The notes beneath the pieces were generated by a model. The model was not told where the DNA came from, did no database searches, and saw only the letters and a list, made by a program, of their open reading frames with translations. This document shows, in pieces, positions 9,488 to 50,403 of a stretch of DNA of 64,000 nucleotides. The stretch covers positions 868,001 to 932,000 of the forward strand of contig NZ_AP028934.1 of the NCBI RefSeq assembly GCF_036323475.1. Reading direction: 5' to 3'. This DNA comes from Solobacterium moorei. GTDB taxonomy: Bacteria > Bacillota_I > Bacilli_A > Erysipelotrichales > Erysipelotrichaceae. The position numbers and the translations under genes were made by a program. Numbering within the stretch: position 1 is the first letter of the stretch; every line of letters starts with the position of its first letter.

Positions 9488-9859
9488 ATGCGTGGACTAA
9501 AGAAAAACATGTACACGTTCTATAGTGCTAAGTATTTAGGACTACAGAAACAAGTGGATGAATGGGAACAACCAACCGGAAGGCACATTCCGAAATATGC
9601 TTTACCCATTAAGCATAGGGGAAATATCAGTCCAAATATTGGTAGTTCTCAATTCTACATGTTTGGAAACTTACTTGAATACAGTAACGTGATTTCTCCA
9701 CTACCAGTCGATACAGATATCGATGAGAACTCTGTTCTATGGATTGGTATTAAACCTAACGCAGAAAATGACAATTACAACTACATTGTCAAACGCATTG
9801 CTAAGTCTAAGAATTTCTTGGCTATAGCGATTGGAAAACGTACAAGCGATGAAGATTGA
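9488..9859 (+). CDS. Head completion (head closure) protein
   Basis: A 123-residue protein between the connector and the gp10-like gene, the usual place of a head-closure or stopper protein. Beta-rich segments (VLWIGIKPNAENDNYNYIVK) fit that family. There are no catalytic motifs. Its last 11 bases overlap the next gene. The assignment rests mostly on gene order. Confidence 0.6.
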   Translation: MRGLKKNMYTFYSAKYLGLQKQVDEWEQPTGRHIPKYALPIKHRGNISPNIGSSQFYMFGNLLEYSNVISPLPVDTDIDENSVLWIGIKPNAENDNYNYIVKRIAKSKNFLAIAIGKRTSDED

Positions 9860-10394
9860 TTTATTTAACCTAGCAGATTTAGATAAAGCGATTGCCATTA
9901 CAGATAACCATAAAGAGAACATGAAGAAACGCATGATCAAGATTATGGAGAAAGTAAGGCAAGAAGCAATATTTGAAGCTAACAGGTTGTATCAATCTGC
10001 AAGTTATGCAGGCTTTAAGGATGTAGTAATCAACGCTACACCAGTACATGTAGAAGATGGCAAATTAACCTTCACATTGCGTGCTATGGGTAGCACAACG
10101 CTATTCATAGAGTTTGGTACAGGTATATATCCAAGTGCCCCCAATGAAGCTTATGGACTTATTACAAACGGTAACATTGAACAACATGGTCAATACGGTA
10201 AGAAACAAGGCTTAAAGCCTAATGGATGGTTTTACAAAGGAGTAGTCGGACAAAACCCACCTTCTGATACAGAAGTATCAACAAAAAAAGAAGGCTTGGT
10301 ACATACATACGGAAACGCAGCTACACCATTCATGTATAGTGCACGGAAGGTAGCAGAAGAAACATTTAATAAGTTGATAAAGGAGTTGAAATAA
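9849..10394 (+). CDS. HK97 gp10-like tail completion protein
   Basis: A 181-residue protein with the signature of the gp10 family: helical N-terminus, then FIEFGTGIYP (about residues 88-97), and a C-terminal PFMYSARKVAEETFNKLIKE helix. These proteins join heads and tails. I chose the ATG at 9849 because it begins MKIDLFNLADL, the conserved start; an in-frame TTG lies 18 bases earlier. It touches the next gene's start at 10394. Confidence 0.75.
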   Translation: MKIDLFNLADLDKAIAITDNHKENMKKRMIKIMEKVRQEAIFEANRLYQSASYAGFKDVVINATPVHVEDGKLTFTLRAMGSTTLFIEFGTGIYPSAPNEAYGLITNGNIEQHGQYGKKQGLKPNGWFYKGVVGQNPPSDTEVSTKKEGLVHTYGNAATPFMYSARKVAEETFNKLIKELK

Positions 10395-24792: not shown

Positions 24793-24866
24793 GCGAGCAT
24801 AATTTAATGGTAGAATGCAACCTTCCCAAGGTTGATGTGCGGGTTCGATTCCCGTTGCTCGCTCCA
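24793..24866 (+). tRNA. tRNA-Gly (CCC)
   Basis: Cloverleaf with acceptor GCGAGCA pairing with TGCTCGC, and anticodon stem CAACC/GGTTG around the loop TTCCCAA (anticodon CCC). An encoded CCA follows at 24864-24866. Its 3' end is the integration site of prophage 2; the last two bases of CCA come from the phage side of the junction. Confidence 0.95.
24849..24864 (+). repeat. attL core, 16 bp
   Basis: TTCCCGTTGCTCGCTC covers the 3' half of the T arm and acceptor of tRNA-Gly and is repeated exactly at 51123-51138. Integration keeps the tRNA gene intact. Confidence 0.9.
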
Positions 24867-24950: not shown

Positions 24951-25985
24951 TTATGTTTTTATAGCATTAATTTTATCTATCAGTTCTTTATTTGTATCAC
25001 TTAGTAGATGCGTATATGTTTTTAAAGTTGTCTCAATATCTGCGTGACCTAATCGTTTTGACACCGCAACGATATTTACACCGTTATTGATTAAGATAGT
25101 AGCATGACTATGCCGAAGATCATGCAAACGTATATTTTTTACGCCTGATGCTTTAATTGCTTTTTTAAATTGCGTCTGTATTTGTGTAATTGACAGTCCG
25201 TGATTACCGCCAAATAAGTAACCATTGCCATTTAATAATGGTTGGATATCTTCTATCAATTTATCATCCAACTGAACAACTCTTGTTGCCTTTGTTTTGG
25301 TCGGTTTTAAGCCGTTTTTGTGGTGTTTTTGGCTTGCGTGGATATTTATCCATCCATCTTTAAAATCGCTCTTCTGTAACGCTATAGCCTCACCACGACG
25401 GCAACCAGTCCAAAATAAGAACTTGAAGAACAATTTATAAATTGGAATATCGACATATTTAATGAATTTGTTAAATTCATTTACAGTCCATATATCCATT
25501 TCTTTCATGATTTCTTCATCTGTTTTTTTGAAAGAGTGCAGAATTGAGGAAATATCATTTATATCATATATCATTGAGGCATATCTAAATACAGATTTAA
25601 CATAAGAAATAGTATGATTCTTAGTTGATGTTGAATACTCTGATTTTGAAAGCATATTGTACCAGTTGGCTAATTCTTTTTTGGTTATCTTTTTGATTGG
25701 AACATTCAAATATTCAGCAAAGCGTTTATTAAAACTTTCCCAGTGTTTTTCTATCATTGTTTTTGATGATTGATGATAACTTTCCCATTGATGTGCCATT
25801 TCTCTAAAAGTCAATTCTCCGGAAGTGTCTTGCGCCAATCGCTGTGCATCTGCTTCAGCATTTAAGGCATCTCTTTTCGTTTCAAAGCCACGTTTCTTTT
25901 TCCATGATATTTTTCCCGTAATTGGATTTTTTACTTTAAAAACGTAATACCAAAGCCCAGTAGGTTTATCTTTTGCGACGGACAT
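24951..25985 (-). CDS. int: Tyrosine-type phage integrase
   Basis: A 344-residue integrase. The N-terminal arm-binding domain (about 1-60, WYYVFKVKNPITGKISWKKK) is followed by a SAM-like core-binding domain (60-160) and the catalytic domain. The catalytic set is complete: Arg in TGCRRGEAIAL, Lys in the KTKATRVVQL hairpin, HDLRHSHAT, LGHADIETT, and Tyr in LKTYTHLL. It recombines attP with tRNA-Gly attB. It is the last gene of a leftward lysogeny operon, 28 bases behind the channel gene, with ribosome site AAGAAGG. The arm repeats lie directly behind its stop. Confidence 0.95.
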   Translation of the reverse strand: MSVAKDKPTGLWYYVFKVKNPITGKISWKKKRGFETKRDALNAEADAQRLAQDTSGELTFREMAHQWESYHQSSKTMIEKHWESFNKRFAEYLNVPIKKITKKELANWYNMLSKSEYSTSTKNHTISYVKSVFRYASMIYDINDISSILHSFKKTDEEIMKEMDIWTVNEFNKFIKYVDIPIYKLFFKFLFWTGCRRGEAIALQKSDFKDGWINIHASQKHHKNGLKPTKTKATRVVQLDDKLIEDIQPLLNGNGYLFGGNHGLSITQIQTQFKKAIKASGVKNIRLHDLRHSHATILINNGVNIVAVSKRLGHADIETTLKTYTHLLSDTNKELIDKINAIKT

Positions 25986-32456: not shown

Positions 32457-32716
32457 ATAAATATCAAGACAGTTTAGATAATTTTGTAAAAGCGTTAAGC
32501 CATTTTACAAATTTTAAAAGTATACATGATTGGAAATCAAACTTACAGGAATTGGTGGATAAGGCGACACCTAAAAAGCCAAAAAACTGGAAAGCAGAAA
32601 GACGGCTAAATGGTGCAGTTGAATTCAATTGTCCAGTTTGCAACAGATTATACACTGAACGTGTTAATTTTTGTGCGAGTTGCGGACAGGCGATAGATTG
32701 GGGTACGTATAAATAA
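32453..32716 (+). CDS. Zinc-ribbon early protein
   Basis: An 87-residue protein with a helical N-terminus and a C-terminal zinc ribbon: CPVCNRLYTERVNFCASCGQ (two CxxC pairs). ATG 32453 overlaps the upstream TGA, and its TAA overlaps the next ATG by one base. Many phages encode such single-ribbon proteins beside methylase genes. The function is unknown. Confidence 0.6.
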   Translation: MNKYQDSLDNFVKALSHFTNFKSIHDWKSNLQELVDKATPKKPKNWKAERRLNGAVEFNCPVCNRLYTERVNFCASCGQAIDWGTYK

Positions 32717-33504
32717 TGAGCGTTGTAATCAAATATCCTGGAGCAAAAAATAGAATTGCAAATTGGATATGCAGCTTCATCCCATCGCATGAAGTTTATC
32801 TTGAGCCATTCTTTGGCGGCGGCGCGATATTCTTCAATAAGAAACAAAAAGCGCATATCGAAACAATAAACGATTTGAATAGAGATGTATTCAATTTTTT
32901 CAAAACACTGCGTGATAATCCAGATAGATTGATTAAATCAATTGAACTCACAGCATATAGCAGAGATGAATATGAATATGCATGGAGCAATCCTGAAGGA
33001 ATAGACAATGTTGAAAGGGCGAGAAGATTCGCGATTAAGTGTTACATGTCAATTGGTGCTGGAAACAGATATAAAAATGGTTTTAGAAGTGGCCAATGCG
33101 GAACATCTCCAAACCCTGCGAAAAGTTGGAACGAGTATCCGGATATTTTACAAGCTGCCTTTGAACGCTTAAAAGGTGTACAAATAGAAAATCTTGACGC
33201 GTTGGAATTGATAAGAAGATATGATACATCGGATGTGTTTATCTATTTAGATCCGCCTTATCTGCTTAGTACGCGAAAAGGCAACATGTATCATCACGAA
33301 ATGACAGACGAGCAACATGTTCAACTGTTAAAAGAAATCAAAAACCATCCTGCAAAAATTATGATTTCAGGATACGAAAATGATATGTACAATTCAGTCC
33401 TGAAAAATTGGCATAAAGAAACCAAAAATACACTTGCAGAATCGTCAAATAAACGAACAGAGGTTCTGTGGATGAATTATTTGCCAGAAAATAAATTGTT
33501 TTAA
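32716..33504 (+). CDS. DNA adenine N6-methyltransferase, D12 (Dam) class
   Basis: A 262-residue methylase. Motif X is KYPGAKNRI at the N-terminus, the AdoMet-binding motif I is EPFFGGGAIFF (about residue 30), the specificity region lies at 70-150, and the catalytic motif IV is DPPY (about 177). No restriction enzyme gene is nearby, so it is an orphan methylase, likely for protection from host restriction or for timing of replication and packaging. The target is probably GATC-like by family, but I cannot confirm it. Confidence 0.92.
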   Translation: MSVVIKYPGAKNRIANWICSFIPSHEVYLEPFFGGGAIFFNKKQKAHIETINDLNRDVFNFFKTLRDNPDRLIKSIELTAYSRDEYEYAWSNPEGIDNVERARRFAIKCYMSIGAGNRYKNGFRSGQCGTSPNPAKSWNEYPDILQAAFERLKGVQIENLDALELIRRYDTSDVFIYLDPPYLLSTRKGNMYHHEMTDEQHVQLLKEIKNHPAKIMISGYENDMYNSVLKNWHKETKNTLAESSNKRTEVLWMNYLPENKLF

Positions 33505-33787: not shown

Positions 33788-34054
33788 ATGATGAAATCAA
33801 CTGATATAGAAAAAGTAGAAACGATATTAACAAAAATAGAATGTTTAAAAAAAGAAACTGCAACTCTTAATCGTTCAAAAGAAGAAGGAATAGATGATGC
33901 TCGCGTAAGAATTAATTACATTAATTTTGAAATTGATGGAAATTTATCTATAAAAGTACGCAATGTGATTTTAGATGAATTTAACTCTGAAATGAATGGA
34001 TATATAGAAGAGTTAAAGCAACTTGGAGTTGAGTACGTAGATGAGACAGCTTAG
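33788..34054 (+). CDS. Hypothetical coiled-coil early protein
   Basis: An 88-residue helical protein (KVETILTKIECLKKETATLN, then FNSEMNGYIEELKQLG). Its last bases overlap the start of the tyrosine recombinase gene, so the two are translationally coupled. The function is unknown; it could be a partner of the recombinase. Confidence 0.5.
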   Translation: MMKSTDIEKVETILTKIECLKKETATLNRSKEEGIDDARVRINYINFEIDGNLSIKVRNVILDEFNSEMNGYIEELKQLGVEYVDETA

Positions 34055-34712
34055 ACGTTTGCAACGTACGAAAGGCTATCTTCGGAAGACACCAGATAAA
34101 CACGGTAGAGAAATTGTAAAGCCATTCATTAAGAGTGATTTCGATGAAATGGTTAGATGCTGCATAAATCATCGAGATAAATATGATCCGTCGTCTTGGA
34201 AGTATCGTATGTGGTATCGGAACTATATTCTATTGATTTTAGGGGTCAACACAGGAAATCGCATTGAGACGTTAATAGAATTAACTCCTAGAGACATCGC
34301 TGGCGGTGAATATACGTGTGTAGAAATGAAAACGGGTAAATCTCAGCAATTTAAAATGAATAAGAAAGTATATTCAATTGTAAAGAAATATATTGAGAGA
34401 TATGAAATACAACTGCTTGAGTACATCTTTGAATCAAGACAGGGCTTAAAAGGGTATCCAATCACGCGACAACAGGCATGGAGAATTATAAAGCGGTTAG
34501 CGGATGAAGCTGGAATAAAATATCCTGTAGCTTGCCATAGTCTTAGGAAATCATATGGACGATGGTATTGGGATGAAACACATGATCTATTAACAACGCA
34601 GAAGCTGCTAATGCATGAAAGCGCTGCAGAGACTATGCTCTACATCATGTTAGAGCCATCTGATATACAGGATGTTAGAGAGTCTATTAATTATACCGAA
34701 AAATGGGGATAG
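34041..34712 (+). CDS. Second tyrosine recombinase, internal to prophage 2
   Basis: A 223-residue enzyme with all catalytic residues visible: Arg in GNRIETLIEL (about residue 79), Lys in the EMKTGKSQQF hairpin, HSLRKSYG (about 170), LLMHESAAET (about 193) and Tyr in MLYIMLEP. A short N-terminal core-binding domain precedes them; no arm-binding domain is present. It is not the element's integrase, which is at 24951-25985. A likely core site (11-bp arms, 7-bp spacer) lies 47 bases behind its stop. Possible jobs are dimer resolution, site-specific inversion or control of late genes. Confidence 0.8.
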   Translation: MRQLRRLQRTKGYLRKTPDKHGREIVKPFIKSDFDEMVRCCINHRDKYDPSSWKYRMWYRNYILLILGVNTGNRIETLIELTPRDIAGGEYTCVEMKTGKSQQFKMNKKVYSIVKKYIERYEIQLLEYIFESRQGLKGYPITRQQAWRIIKRLADEAGIKYPVACHSLRKSYGRWYWDETHDLLTTQKLLMHESAAETMLYIMLEPSDIQDVRESINYTEKWG

Positions 34713-34756
34713 ATAAAAACATTCTTGCATGTTCTAAAAATAATACAAATTTATGA

Positions 34757-34887
34757 GTGAGTGTAACATTCGATTTATGTAACACTCAAAAACAGATAAA
34801 AACAAGATAAGCCAGTATTGAAAAGCATTATTAAGAAAATAAAGCTTTGAAATAAGCGTTACATAGTTACGATTCTGTTACACTCAC
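34757..34887. repeat. GAGTGTAAC inverted repeats behind the internal recombinase
   Basis: GAGTGTAACAT (34759-34769), a 7-base spacer and ATGTAACACTC (34777-34787) form an 11-7-11 inverted pair with one mismatch. A third copy, TGTTACACTCAC (34876-34887), is a perfect 12-bp inverted match to 34757-34768. The 11-7-11 layout is that of a tyrosine recombinase core site. Confidence 0.6.
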
Positions 34888-34912
34888 AGACGAATAGAAA
34901 AAGGAGATAAAA

Positions 34913-35253: not shown

Positions 35254-35443
35254 GAAAGAGGAAATCGAACTCGCGCTACTTAGAAGAAAAAGAAATGAGC
35301 TAGAAAAGGAAATCGCAAGAGTTAAGGAAGCGCATCGCAGACATGAGTTTGCGGAAGTTAATACATTTCAACTCTTTGTTCTGGAAGATCGTTTGCGTTG
35401 GGTAGAAAAAAAGATAGCTAGAAGGGTGAAGCATGGTAAATGA
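35240..35443 (+). CDS. Small coiled-coil protein
   Basis: A 67-residue highly charged helical protein (EIELALLRRKRNELEKEIAR, VLEDRLRWVEKKIARRVKHG). It starts at ATG 35240 or ATG 35246 and overlaps both neighbours. The function is unknown. Confidence 0.5.
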   Translation: MIMTKKEEIELALLRRKRNELEKEIARVKEAHRRHEFAEVNTFQLFVLEDRLRWVEKKIARRVKHGK

Positions 35444-35855
35444 TGATAAACTGAAATATATTGATGGCAAGTTAAAAGGAATAAAGTATTCTGCAAATAG
35501 AGTTGTTGATATTTGGGATAGATTACAGGAGATTGCTATTGAGTTAAATGGTTCGGTTAGATCGCCATCAATTCGTTCTGAAGAAGAAGCAAAGTATCAA
35601 AGAGGGACATGTATTTATAAAAGCAATATCGCCGAGTTGATTAACGAAGAAGAAGTGCTATTACTGCAATACAATATGTATGAAACAGAGCTGAATGATA
35701 TACAAAGATTCTTACGAAAACTATCTGTTAATGAAATAGAACTGTTGTACGAGAGATATGAATGCGGAAGGTCGTTTGAAACGATAGGATATATACTTGG
35801 ATATGACAATGCATATATTCAGAGACAATTGAAAAAAATTTTATTGAAATATTAA
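35433..35855 (+). CDS. Late transcription regulator, DUF1492/sigma-like
   Basis: A 140-residue helical protein with a C-terminal sigma region 4-like HTH: LSVNEIELLYERYECGRSFE followed by TIGYILGYDNAYIQRQLKK. The arrangement and position, last gene before HNH and terminase, fit the DUF1492/ArpU-like regulators of late gene expression. A perfect 18-bp palindrome starts two bases behind its stop, a possible binding site. Confidence 0.75.
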   Translation: MVNDDKLKYIDGKLKGIKYSANRVVDIWDRLQEIAIELNGSVRSPSIRSEEEAKYQRGTCIYKSNIAELINEEEVLLLQYNMYETELNDIQRFLRKLSVNEIELLYERYECGRSFETIGYILGYDNAYIQRQLKKILLKY

Positions 35856-36046: not shown

Positions 36047-36349
36047 ATGGCGAGAGAATTTAGCAAAGCGTTTTATAAATCATCCGCATGGATTAAATGT
36101 CGTAAGGCTTTTCTTTCGATACATCCATACTGCAATAGATGTGAACAAGCTGGAAAGATAACTCCAGCTGAACATGTTCATCATAAGATATGGCTAACAC
36201 CAAAGAATATTAATGATCCATACATCACGTTGAACTGGGATAACCTAGAAGCACTATGTCATGATTGTCATACTAAAGAGCATTTAGGCAAGTCACAAGT
36301 TGAAGAAGGATTGTACTTTGATTCATACGGAAATTTAAAGCGCCGATAG
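36047..36349 (+). CDS. HNH endonuclease
   Basis: A 100-residue HNH nuclease: two Cys pairs (CNRC and CHDC), the catalytic HVHHKIWL and NWDNLEALC, and DCHTKEH. Phage HNH proteins beside the terminase genes assist DNA packaging in HK97-type phages. CGGAGG ribosome site before ATG 36047. A 120-base gap with a hairpin separates it from the small terminase, a likely cos region. Confidence 0.9.
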   Translation: MAREFSKAFYKSSAWIKCRKAFLSIHPYCNRCEQAGKITPAEHVHHKIWLTPKNINDPYITLNWDNLEALCHDCHTKEHLGKSQVEEGLYFDSYGNLKRR

Positions 36350-36469: not shown

Positions 36470-36841
36470 ATGGCAAGAAAGAAGAAGGTAGACAAAGAAG
36501 CTCTTATTTTAGAAGAGTTTAAGAGACTTACGGTTATTTTCCAAGATATACCAAATGAGAAGAGAGAACTATGTACTAATCTGATGCAAAATGCAGCTTT
36601 TATGGTCATATCTCTACGTGAATTACAAGATGATTTGCGTGTTAATGGATGGATTGAAGAGTATCAGAATGGTGAAAACCAGTCTGGAAGAAAACCTTCT
36701 AGTGCATCACAGGTATATAACAAATTAATTTCAAACTACAATAACATCATCAAACAGCTTGTTGGGTTGTTGCCTGATGACAAACAAGAAAGTGTTAAGG
36801 CAACTGTAGATCCAATGATGGAGTTCTTTAATACTAAATGA
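36470..36841 (+). CDS. terS: Terminase small subunit, P27 family
   Basis: A 123-residue helical protein: Lys-rich start, then ELCTNLMQNAAFMVISLREL, a Gly-poor loop with YQNGENQSGRKPSSASQVYN, and NNIIKQLVGLLPDD. This order fits the P27-type small terminases. It recognises the phage DNA end for the large subunit encoded next, with which it overlaps by four bases. AAAGG ribosome site before ATG 36470. Confidence 0.85.
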   Translation: MARKKKVDKEALILEEFKRLTVIFQDIPNEKRELCTNLMQNAAFMVISLRELQDDLRVNGWIEEYQNGENQSGRKPSSASQVYNKLISNYNNIIKQLVGLLPDDKQESVKATVDPMMEFFNTK

Positions 36842-38508
36842 TTGAGTACGATCATACTAACTACATTCTTAAATACTGGAATGAAATCAAAAACAAAAAG
36901 ATTGTAGTCAGTAAGAAGATTGAAAAGGTTTATCAGGGGCTGGCTAATGATGTTAAAAGCAAAAGAAGTAAATATAAGTTTGATATAGATAGGGCATCAA
37001 GACCTATTTTTTTTATTGAATCATTCTGCAAGCAGTCAAAAGGTGCAATTGGTGAACCGATTAAACTACGACTATTTCAGAAGGCGGCTATACAAGCTAT
37101 TTTTGGATTTGTTGATAAGAATGGAGTACGCCGATTCAATGAAGTGCTATGGATTATGGGGCGTAAAAACGGTAAATCTGTTCTACTATCAGCAATATCT
37201 CTATACATGATGATAGGAGACCACGAAGGTGGTGCAGAAATAGATTGTGTTGCAAGTAAGAAAGACCAGGCAAAGATTGTATTTAATGAATCTAGAAATA
37301 TGGTCAGACAATCTCCGTATTTATCAAAGTATATCGCTAAGCGAAAGAGTGATATGTATTCTGATTTTAATTTCGGAGTATTCCAGCCACTATCAAGTGA
37401 CTCAAATACATTAGATGGATTGAATGTACATTGTGGTATTATCGATGAATTACATTCAATTAAGGACCGTAATATCTACGATGTAGTTAAACAGGGTATG
37501 TCTGCTAGAAAGCAACCGATTTTGTTTACAATAACTACATCAGGATTTAACAGAGAAGGTATTTATGACGATCTTTATGAATATGCTGATAAGGTCATTA
37601 ATAAAGACACTAATGATGAACGTTTTTTGCCACTCATTTATGAACTTGATAGTACCAAAGAATGGGATGATGAAAAGATGTGGCCAAAGGCTAATCCAGG
37701 ATTAGGAATGATTAAAGCAAAATCATTTCTGCGTGAAATGGTAAGCAGAGCAAAAGTGGATTCTAAGATAAAAGCAACTGTACTTACTAAAGACTTTAAT
37801 CTAAAGAATGTAACATCAGAGACTTGGCTATCTTGGGAACAACTTGATTGCGAGGATACGTTCTCAATAGATGATGTTGCTAATACATATGCGATTGGTG
37901 GATGCGATTTATCTGCTACTACTGACCTTACTGCAGCTACACTCTTAATTCGTAAAAAAGATGATGAGAAAATCTATGTTTTACAGCATTATTTTTTACC
38001 ACAAGCACGAATTGACTACTTAGAAAAGACATCTTCAAAAGAAGCACCATATCAAGTTTGGGCGGACAGAGGATTACTTACTATATGTAACGGAAATATG
38101 GTCAACTATAGCGATGTTACGCAATGGTACAAAGATATGCGTGATAAGTATGGAATTGATTTGTGGAAGATGGGATATGATAGAGCATTAGCTGGATATT
38201 GGGCTGATGAAATGGCTGGAGAATTTGGACAGTCTGTAATGGAAAAGGTTGCACAGGGCCCATTTACTTGGACTGCACCGATGAAGGAACTTGGTGCAAG
38301 ACTGGCAAATAAAGAGATTAACTATGACAACAATCCAATGCTGAAATGGTGTTTATCAAACACTGGAATCAAAGCGCAGGGTAGTATTGAATCAATTCAG
38401 CCTGTAAAGATACAACAGAATAGGCGTATTGATGGTATGGTTAGTTTGTTAAATGCATATGTAATATATGTAAAGTATCGTGATGATTACTTGAATTTAG
38501 TTGGATAG
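36838..38508 (+). CDS. terL: Terminase large subunit, HK97/P27-associated
   Basis: A 556-residue packaging motor. The ATPase has a Walker A-like MGRKNGKSVLLSAIS (about residue 105), a Walker B-like GIIDELHS (about 201) and the TTSGF coupling motif. The nuclease half begins GGCDLSATTDLTA (about 360) and continues with Asp residues near RRIDGMVSLLNA. It is unrelated in detail to the TerL of prophage 1 (different Walker A context). ATGA overlap with terS. Confidence 0.93.
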   Translation: MIEYDHTNYILKYWNEIKNKKIVVSKKIEKVYQGLANDVKSKRSKYKFDIDRASRPIFFIESFCKQSKGAIGEPIKLRLFQKAAIQAIFGFVDKNGVRRFNEVLWIMGRKNGKSVLLSAISLYMMIGDHEGGAEIDCVASKKDQAKIVFNESRNMVRQSPYLSKYIAKRKSDMYSDFNFGVFQPLSSDSNTLDGLNVHCGIIDELHSIKDRNIYDVVKQGMSARKQPILFTITTSGFNREGIYDDLYEYADKVINKDTNDERFLPLIYELDSTKEWDDEKMWPKANPGLGMIKAKSFLREMVSRAKVDSKIKATVLTKDFNLKNVTSETWLSWEQLDCEDTFSIDDVANTYAIGGCDLSATTDLTAATLLIRKKDDEKIYVLQHYFLPQARIDYLEKTSSKEAPYQVWADRGLLTICNGNMVNYSDVTQWYKDMRDKYGIDLWKMGYDRALAGYWADEMAGEFGQSVMEKVAQGPFTWTAPMKELGARLANKEINYDNNPMLKWCLSNTGIKAQGSIESIQPVKIQQNRRIDGMVSLLNAYVIYVKYRDDYLNLVG

Positions 38509-49431: not shown

Positions 49432-50403
49432 ATGGGAAGAATTTATAACGTTCCAGATGTTAGCGAACATCAACCAGATTTTGACTTCACACCTTATGCT
49501 GGCGGATATGCAATTCTGCGTGCTGGTGTAGCAAGCCGTGAAGATTATTCATTCAGACGACATGTTTCAGAGTGCCAACGTTTAGGCATCACAATAGGTG
49601 TTTACTTCTATTCCTATGCACTAAACACTGCACAGGCAATCGAAGAAGCACAACGCTTCTTATCCATCATTGCTGGCGTGGATATTGGGCTTGGTGTATG
49701 GCTAGACATGGAAGATGCTGACCACTACAAAGTAAATAGCGGGGTTGCTATCACGCATGACAATATTGCACCTATGTCCAAAGCATTCTGTGATGTTGTT
49801 GCTTCTGCTGGATATTACACAGGCATTTATACATCGCTATCTTGGCTTGGATACCTTGCACCTGAATGTGATCCATACGATAAGTGGGTAGCGGCTTGGG
49901 GTAACAACGATGGAAGCCATACAGTTGACACTTCCGCATACGGAACTATTCAGCAGTACACTTCTAACTATGGAACATTAGACGAAAATGTTATCTTTGT
50001 TGATCCATCAATCTATCGTACTGGTGCAACAGCAGATAGACCGGATAACTATGCTCCGGCACCATCTGTTATTGCTCCTGAAGCACCGGACGTATATATC
50101 GTACAATCTGGTGATACACTGTCCGGAATTGCGGCGAGATACGGTACGACTTGGCAGGAACTTGCGGCAATCAATCGTTTAAATGATCCTAATATGATTT
50201 TCCCAGGACAACAGATTGTAATTAGAGGTTCTGCTAATGCAAGTAATTTCGGCGGTGGTGAAGAGTATTACACGATCCAACCAGGCGACAATCTATCATC
50301 AATTGCGGCGAGATACGGTACAACGTGGCAGTGGTTAGCGGAGGTGAATGGTATTAGTGAACCTAATCTGATTTATCCTGGCAACACAATTCGTGTCAGA
50401 TAG
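49432..50403 (+). CDS. Endolysin: GH25 lysozyme with two LysM domains
   Basis: A 323-residue muramidase. The GH25 domain covers residues 1-200 (YNVPDVSEHQPDFDF, then LGVWLDMEDADHY with the acidic pair, and WVAAWGNNDG). A Pro/Ala linker follows, then two LysM repeats (about 222-265 and 279-323; YIVQSGDTLSGIAARYGTTW, YTIQPGDNLSSIAARYGTTW). It has no signal peptide. I chose ATG 49432 after GAAGGAGA. It is homologous to the prophage 1 endolysin, with the LysM parts more similar than the catalytic part. Confidence 0.93.
   Translation: MGRIYNVPDVSEHQPDFDFTPYAGGYAILRAGVASREDYSFRRHVSECQRLGITIGVYFYSYALNTAQAIEEAQRFLSIIAGVDIGLGVWLDMEDADHYKVNSGVAITHDNIAPMSKAFCDVVASAGYYTGIYTSLSWLGYLAPECDPYDKWVAAWGNNDGSHTVDTSAYGTIQQYTSNYGTLDENVIFVDPSIYRTGATADRPDNYAPAPSVIAPEAPDVYIVQSGDTLSGIAARYGTTWQELAAINRLNDPNMIFPGQQIVIRGSANASNFGGGEEYYTIQPGDNLSSIAARYGTTWQWLAEVNGISEPNLIYPGNTIRVR

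Follow-up and report, generated by a model that had tools for sequence, protein, structure and literature searches.

We identified a gene for a small tyrosine recombinase followed by two paired inverted-arm sites, S1 and S2, in a prophage of Solobacterium moorei. The prophage lies in the 64,000-nucleotide stretch of DNA analyzed here, referred to as the window. The gene and the two sites probably form a self-contained Xer-like resolution module with one crossover site and one accessory site. Judged from sequence, this assignment is based on the catalytic residues, the paired sites, their co-variation between phages, their near-fixed spacing, and their restriction to the element within its own genome. 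The initial annotation had proposed a self-contained second recombination module at this position, and the paired, co-varying sites support that proposal. Among the roles it had listed, dimer resolution is the most likely, and neither an invertible segment nor promoter control gained support.

The recombinase

The recombinase gene (34041-34712, + strand) encodes a protein of 223 amino acids that was characterized from the open reading frame list, Pfam and PHROG profiles, alignments and an AlphaFold model. In profile searches the product matches PF00589 (Phage_integrase, 8.6e-23) and phrog_216 ('integrase', 7.7e-39). The catalytic motif of tyrosine recombinases is R-K-H-R-H/W-Y, and the protein carries all of these residues. 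The six positions (R74, K97, H166, R169, H192 and Y201) show no variation among the recombinase relatives in a 19-row alignment; in a separate 10-row alignment, tyrosine replaces H166 in two distant relatives, L011 and L021. The complete catalytic residues and the PF00589 match bear out the original description of the gene as an intact tyrosine recombinase.

Simple tyrosine recombinases, Xer included, consist of a core-binding and a catalytic domain, as stated in an excerpt of PMC8138268. Neither the profile alignment nor the structure model of the 34041-34712 protein contains a core-binding domain. The AlphaFold model (mean pLDDT 85.2) folds over residues 31–215, with residues 1–22 below a pLDDT of 50, and against the 292-residue Xer protein 4a8e the recombinase profile covers residues 117–276 only, which correspond to the catalytic half. 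Because the fold begins at residue 31 and the profile aligns to the Xer catalytic half only, the protein is predicted to possess the full catalytic set and to lack the core-binding domain. The top fold matches of the model are XerH and XerA, then the integron integrase 2a3v, and other tyrosine recombinases are also matched. The best NCBIfam Xer model has an E-value of 2.1e-19, yet its score is 70 bits compared with a cut-off of 329.6. These phage recombinases range in size from 180 to 223 amino acids.

Two sites behind the gene

S1 (34759-34787) reads GAGTGTAACAT-TCGATTT-ATGTAACACTC, with a left arm at 34759-34769, a spacer at 34770-34776 and a right arm at 34777-34787. The arms are complementary at 10 of 11 positions, which confirms the 11-7-11 repeat reported behind the recombinase. 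S2 (34854-34885) consists of a left arm (34854-34863), a 12-nt centre and a right arm (34876-34885). The initial annotation had recorded three arms, the last as a third copy at 34876-34887. All three are real, and TGTTACACTCAC (34876-34887) is indeed complementary to GTGAGTGTAACA (34757-34768) at 12 of 12 positions. However, this copy does not stand alone but is the right arm of S2, whose match to the left arm of S1 runs on to 34887, and the fourth arm at 34854-34863 had been overlooked.

The sites are separated by 66 bp (34788-34853), with a centre-to-centre distance of 96.5 bp, and the intervening stretch has the same orientation in the window, L004, L005 and L002. The spacers of S1 and S2 are unlike each other. 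The centre of S2 bears what we take to be a resemblance to B. subtilis dif, and a motif akin to it is present in other loci of the window clade. When the region behind the gene was compared across related loci, as had been suggested, the layout was found to be kept in L002, L004, L005 and other relatives. S1 is preserved in these three loci, with an altered right arm in L002 and L005.

A lone inverted-arm site is not rare in the window. There are three sites like S1 with a 7-bp gap in the 64 kb, and 24 with gaps of 5–9 (20 shuffles gave a mean of 5.5 and a maximum of 10); when the 200-bp intergenic stretch was shuffled 2000 times, one such site arose in 36 cases. The pair is another matter: it is not due to chance, because the window locus (L001) has a pair score of 34 compared with at most 28 in 50 shuffles, and because the layout is kept in relatives.

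The same scoring was applied to 63 recombinase clusters formed at 90% identity, after nine of 72 had been dropped (eight with long Xer-like proteins and one from a Thermus phage). The pair scored above all 50 shuffles in 22 clusters, where approximately one is expected by chance, and was reached by no more than two of the 50 in 32 clusters, where approximately four are expected. In three of these 32 (L007, L101 and L109) the top-scoring pair is no recognizable site. In a control on the 300 bp that precede the genes, the score never exceeded 28 (62 tested). The remaining 31 clusters have no significant pair in the 265 bp directly downstream (for example L024, L025, L027, L036, L038 and L051-L053), and in five of them (L058, L061, L089, L094 and L099) the S2 centre motif persists. 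In L179, L253 and L260 the S2 motif lies one gene further on.

Co-variation and spacing

For comparisons between phages, S2 was located by its centre motif or a right-hand landmark, and a partner was sought some 40–130 bp upstream. We scored the S1 and S2 of the same phage against S1 and S2 swapped between phages, restricting the swaps to pairs whose S2 arms were alike at no more than 14 of 20 letters. In a Streptococcus/Bacillus-like set, own pairs read as inverted copies matched at 15.33 of 20 positions (n = 21) compared with 12.33 for swapped pairs (n = 320; rank-sum p 6e-11). The corresponding values for the window clade, whose arms were curated by hand, were 15.2 (n = 9) and 12.3 (n = 62; p 0.003); the swapped pairs are not independent of one another, so both p values are rough. 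Read as direct copies, own pairs scored 14.2 versus 12.3 for swapped pairs in the Streptococcus/Bacillus-like set and 15.0 versus 12.3 in the window clade. The initial annotation had reasoned that the repeats should be neither absent beside homologous recombinase genes nor free to vary. The first expectation fails for the 31 clusters above. The second holds where the sites are present: the arms differ between phages, but by their sequences the S1 and S2 of one phage vary as a matched set, not freely.

The inverted reading of S1 against S2 is the better one in the Streptococcus/Bacillus-like set, and the symmetry of the window-clade arms does not allow the two readings to be told apart. Because the direct reading also beats the swaps, and because the L026 pair fits it better than the inverted reading, no single orientation of S1 and S2 is required.

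Among the matches listed, 76 unique motif sites have a recombinase upstream. An S1 partner scoring at least 15 of 20 was found for 63 of these 76, and for none when the upstream letters were shuffled; at a threshold of 14 the counts were 69 and one, and the other seven sites score below 14. We also examined 30 stretches picked by hand, of which 29 contain both sites, with a distance of 84 bp in 28 of them and of 83 bp in L160; no S1 was found in L164 at the tolerance used. Both sites were mostly visible in these stretches beforehand, and the motif-first count of 76 sites is the fairer one.

The spacing of the sites is nearly fixed inside each clade. It is 84.0 bp in 58 of 61 sites with TTACACA arms (sites selected for a score of at least 15) and 84–85.5 bp in 81 of 103 sites (selected in the same way from 140 unique sites). 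In 14 hand-curated pairs the spacing is 96.5–99.0 bp (nine, the window clade), 108–111.5 bp (four) and 102.5 bp (one), and the central gap is 9–12 in S1 and 12–13 in S2, with centre sequences that are unlike.

Distribution

A second locus in the same genome (L002, G000:C1:1908429-1909097) carries a recombinase gene 89% identical to that in the window and equal paired sites. The two modules lie on one chromosome, and mutual recombination between them is possible in principle. Good matches to the site occur in this genome only beside the two recombinase copies; four other matches have E-values of 0.46–0.85. Counting the S. moorei genome itself each time, the recombinase has a match at 1e-25 in 19 of 315 genomes of the order and in eight of 392 genomes of the phylum. 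At 1e-10 it has a match in 15 of 100 related genomes, seven of which match only through an ordinary Xer-type protein of approximately 300 amino acids.

The recombinase matches 157 phage records, 119 of them from Streptococcus. The two-site layout is common to relatives in other phages, in a satellite and, by eye, in a circular phage that carries ParA. With other arms, it recurs directly behind the genes of L008, L009, L010 and L021, whose proteins are 36–54% identical to that in the window. The arms are TTTTAACA/TGTTAAAA in L008 and L021, GCAAC/GTTGC in L009 as well as L034 and L045, and TTTGACA/TGTCAAA in L010. A site-first scan with the motif ACANAATATAAGATATG, which does not reach the window clade, returned at least 120 stretches of viral contigs. 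Among the matches listed, a recombinase lies upstream in 91 of 120, and several of the remaining matches fall inside genes by eye. We infer that the host of the largest motif set is Bacillus-like. The motif occurs once in 395 whole genomes, approximately 200 bp behind a recombinase.

The ParA-carrying phage, phiCD08011, is a circular record in which this enzyme is the sole annotated recombinase, and matching arms are seen by eye downstream of it. In the Streptococcus satellite phage Javan552 (L148) the recombinase (9502-10044) is the last annotated gene and is followed by the sites; its S2 resembles that of phages L066 and L067. Two plasmids deviate from the pattern. No pair is seen by eye in the 330 bp downstream of the recombinase of the pLS20-like plasmid L150, and in plasmid pNTHE02 (L151) one dif-like inverted site is seen by eye, ahead of a related recombinase (upstream of 3199). 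An annotated iscB gene lies downstream of the recombinase in pNTHE02.

Extra DNA at S1 and variable DNA behind S2

More than 250 bp separates the gene from S2 in 32 of 91 loci among the matches listed. In 16 of these 32, the S1-side end of the extra DNA resembles a repeat that we take to be the Tn4430 terminal repeat (12 clear cases and four that are near-identical to one another and marginal). A matching left end is present in 13 of the 16; the shuffled control for such ends covers left ends only. No transposase was found near the matches of the repeat in the annotated neighbourhoods that were opened or among the open reading frames of one unannotated stretch. Such ends call to mind transposons that target resolution sites.

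Cargo genes are found between the recombinase and S1 in L158, L170, L171, L175, L187, L218 and L227, five of which (L158, L170, L187, L218 and L227) have the Tn4430-like right end. The cargo includes an abhydrolase (L218), an M6-peptidase-like protein (L171) and, by eye, a cold-shock protein (L170 and L187) and a nucleoside hydrolase (L175). In L203, a stretch without a recombinase, a PF00144 protein lies upstream of S1. The cargo genes before S1 prompted us to consider integron-like cassette capture, which we rejected given the single site pair per stretch and the Tn4430-like ends. Because half of the loci with extra DNA resemble the Tn4430 terminal repeat at the S1-side end, the cargo instead looks like transposon-type insertions. 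Another lead, the bcr repeat elements, was also dropped, with nothing pertinent among the matches listed.

In the largest set (among L068-L274), conservation is high from approximately 97 bp before the S2 core through the right arm, with many columns above 0.9, and then falls to 0.31–0.61. The 67 unique sites of this set (80 rows) are followed directly by 36 types of DNA. The region behind S2 resembles a hypervariable gene slot with varied first open reading frames. Three of ten first genes scanned match defence candidates (PDC-S31, a TIR-type effector and a DrmA model), and another gene behind S2 matches the AbiGi Pfam model. We considered placing the crossover at S2 from these mosaic junctions and rejected the argument, as selection for an intact site together with ordinary recombination explains the drop equally well. 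The drop behind the right arm of S2 is used here only to mark the end of the functional unit.

Prophage context

The prophage has its own, separate integrase (24951-25985, − strand), as originally annotated, with PF00589 and an arm-binding domain. The adjoining tRNA-Gly (24793-24866) had been thought to provide the att core. This is unconfirmed, because no second copy of its last 14 or more nucleotides occurs within the window. A D12-class adenine methyltransferase (32716-33504) lies two short open reading frames before the recombinase gene. Downstream on the + strand are an open reading frame resembling a transcriptional regulator (35433-35855; phrog_36, 1.5e-6, with weak matches to Sigma70_r4 and HTH_38 below the Pfam cut-offs), an HNH-like open reading frame labelled by eye (36047-36349), a weak small-terminase-like open reading frame (36470-36841) and the large terminase (36838-38508; open reading frame list and profile search). 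Elsewhere in the window, a direct repeat at 50104-50381 has a length of 104 nt, 71% identity and a start-to-start distance of 174 bp.

Terminase genes occur within a few genes after the recombinase in the window, in seven of the ten phage regions first opened, and in L152 and L154; of the ten, only a satellite, a Thermus phage and Javan565 deviate. In the Streptococcus regions L058, L062, L063 and L066 an annotated transcriptional regulator precedes the recombinase, and a regulator lies downstream of it in the window and L154. Promoter-like matches are fewer in 34713-34912 than in shuffles of this region: there is none on the + strand and one on the − strand (34767-34740).

Proposed role and alternatives

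We propose that the small recombinase binds four half-sites making up two dif-like sites, S1 and S2. Crossover would take place at one of them, more likely S2 because its centre is more conserved. The other would be an accessory site, assisting assembly of the complex only if two copies of the module share one molecule. The predicted outcome is the reduction of dimers or multimers of the circular DNA, from phage or plasmid prophage, to monomers. A simple exchange of S1 with S2 is improbable because their spacers differ and because none of the 67 loops in one set of unique sites is inverted. With exchange between S1 and S2, other targets and promoter control set aside, a composite site acting as two copies in one molecule points to a resolution system. 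The circular phage phiCD08011 and the satellite Javan552 back this reading, as does the published belief, in the excerpted text of PMC8026635, that plasmid prophages use their Xer-type recombinases for dimer resolution. Against it, the phage in the window also carries a separate integrase and a presumed cos-like gene order, for which monomer circles would bring no obvious benefit; the clusters that have no significant pair downstream and the deviating plasmids L150 and L151 also count against it.

It is unlikely that the S1-S2 hairpin instead serves as a folded single-strand site of the integron attC or CTXphi attP type, exchanging modules between phages or satellites. The better fit of the inverted reading in the Streptococcus/Bacillus-like set and the many types of DNA just downstream of S2 would agree with such a site, as would the single-stranded folding z-scores (−5.0 for the window, −5.8 for L004 and −2.1 to −4.2 for six others, with the L026 and L126 stretches incomplete) and the distance of 90 nt between CTXphi attP1 and attP2 (PMC5357621, in excerpt). 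However, matching change is expected anyway if one protein binds both sites, sequence changes in L002 leave a weaker inner stem (7 of 10), L026 fits the direct reading better, the S1-S2 hairpin is not the best fold for L026 or L098, and the 30 hand-picked stretches contain no cassette arrays and one site pair each where both sites were found. A role like that of P1 Cre-lox, in which circles form from terminally redundant DNA or are joined into dimers fit for packaging, close to the packaging genes, would suit the proximity of the terminase genes and is quite unlikely. An HNH-terminase gene order suggests cos ends, two sites are not needed for such a role, and Javan552 carries the module without an annotated terminase.

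We consider it very unlikely that the protein is mainly a DNA-binding regulator or part of an architectural complex. Paired operators at near-fixed spacing would also fit a looping repressor, but none of the 19 aligned sequences has lost a catalytic residue, which is unexpected for a pure regulator. That the recombinase sits on a temperate phage is compatible with a second system for integration at a chromosomal target. This is highly improbable, as a separate integrase is present and the genome contains no matching site elsewhere. The least probable alternative, scarcely to be credited, is one envisaged in the initial annotation, namely a segment between S1 and S2 that inverts or is deleted, or a promoter switch there. 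The sites can be inverted repeats approximately 100 bp apart, and the seven motif sites without a good S1 are possibly deletion products or decay. Invertible elements of the fimS type have identical sites in inverse orientation and are seen in both orientations. Here, the spacers and loops described above and the equal orientation in the window, L004 and L005 argue against inversion. The varying position relative to the regulator and the lack of a + strand promoter-like match in 34713-34912 speak against control between early and late genes.

Relation to known systems

The putative resolution module shares its catalytic domain fold and the dif-like centre of S2 with Xer/dif (XerCD; CodV/RipX). 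Unlike Xer/dif, it has one recombinase gene, without a core-binding domain, and paired sites, and it is not chromosomal housekeeping. In XerS/difSL of streptococci and lactococci a single Xer-type recombinase is likewise genetically coupled to a dif-like site of its own (PMC5357621, in excerpt). However, XerS is a chromosomal protein of 356 amino acids with one 31-bp site, whereas the enzymes described here have 180–223 amino acids and only the catalytic domain, are phage-borne and are associated with two sites. The res and TnpI/IRS systems are core-plus-accessory resolution systems, and in Tn4430 the tyrosine recombinase TnpI serves as resolvase on a core site with accessory binding motifs. 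Such systems have several sites for enzyme binding, set at a constant distance, and resolve directly repeated copies in a directional manner; here there are paired candidate sites at near-fixed spacing. In contrast to Tn4430, there is no transposon, and the accessory element would be a second inverted-arm site.

Cre of phage P1 includes a core-binding domain and acts on a single loxP site. P1 Cre/loxP and the Xer-type enzymes of plasmid prophages are phage-borne and believed to resolve dimers, as proposed here. For the plasmid-prophage enzymes this belief is stated in an excerpt of PMC8026635, which names no sites for them. The CTXphi attP(+) and integron attC sites are inverted and paired as here, with the two approximately 90 nt apart in CTXphi according to an excerpt of PMC5357621. 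The elements described here differ from both in being double-stranded DNA phages with their own recombinase, and the orientation of their sites is not clearly conserved. Integron attC sites are inverted paired sites that occur in cassette arrays, each cassette ending in a site. No such arrays were seen here; 29 of the 30 hand-picked stretches, those in which both sites were found, have one pair. In searches of full-text literature, from which subscription journals are mostly absent, we recognized no description of the paired sites among the matches listed.

A broader role for the two-site locus of phages, satellites and plasmid-type prophages served by catalytic-domain-only recombinases is fairly unlikely: it might also provide a crossover for swapping the genes downstream of S2, perhaps with the sites as folded single strands. 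The resolution module itself would account for the retention of a second recombinase by an integrated phage. It also provides a candidate target site for genes whose sole annotation in phage records is 'integrase' or 'site-specific recombinase', and its role is testable with a cassette of approximately 130 bp. The natural variants, with arms that differ in matched sets, may be useful for learning how so small an enzyme reads its site.
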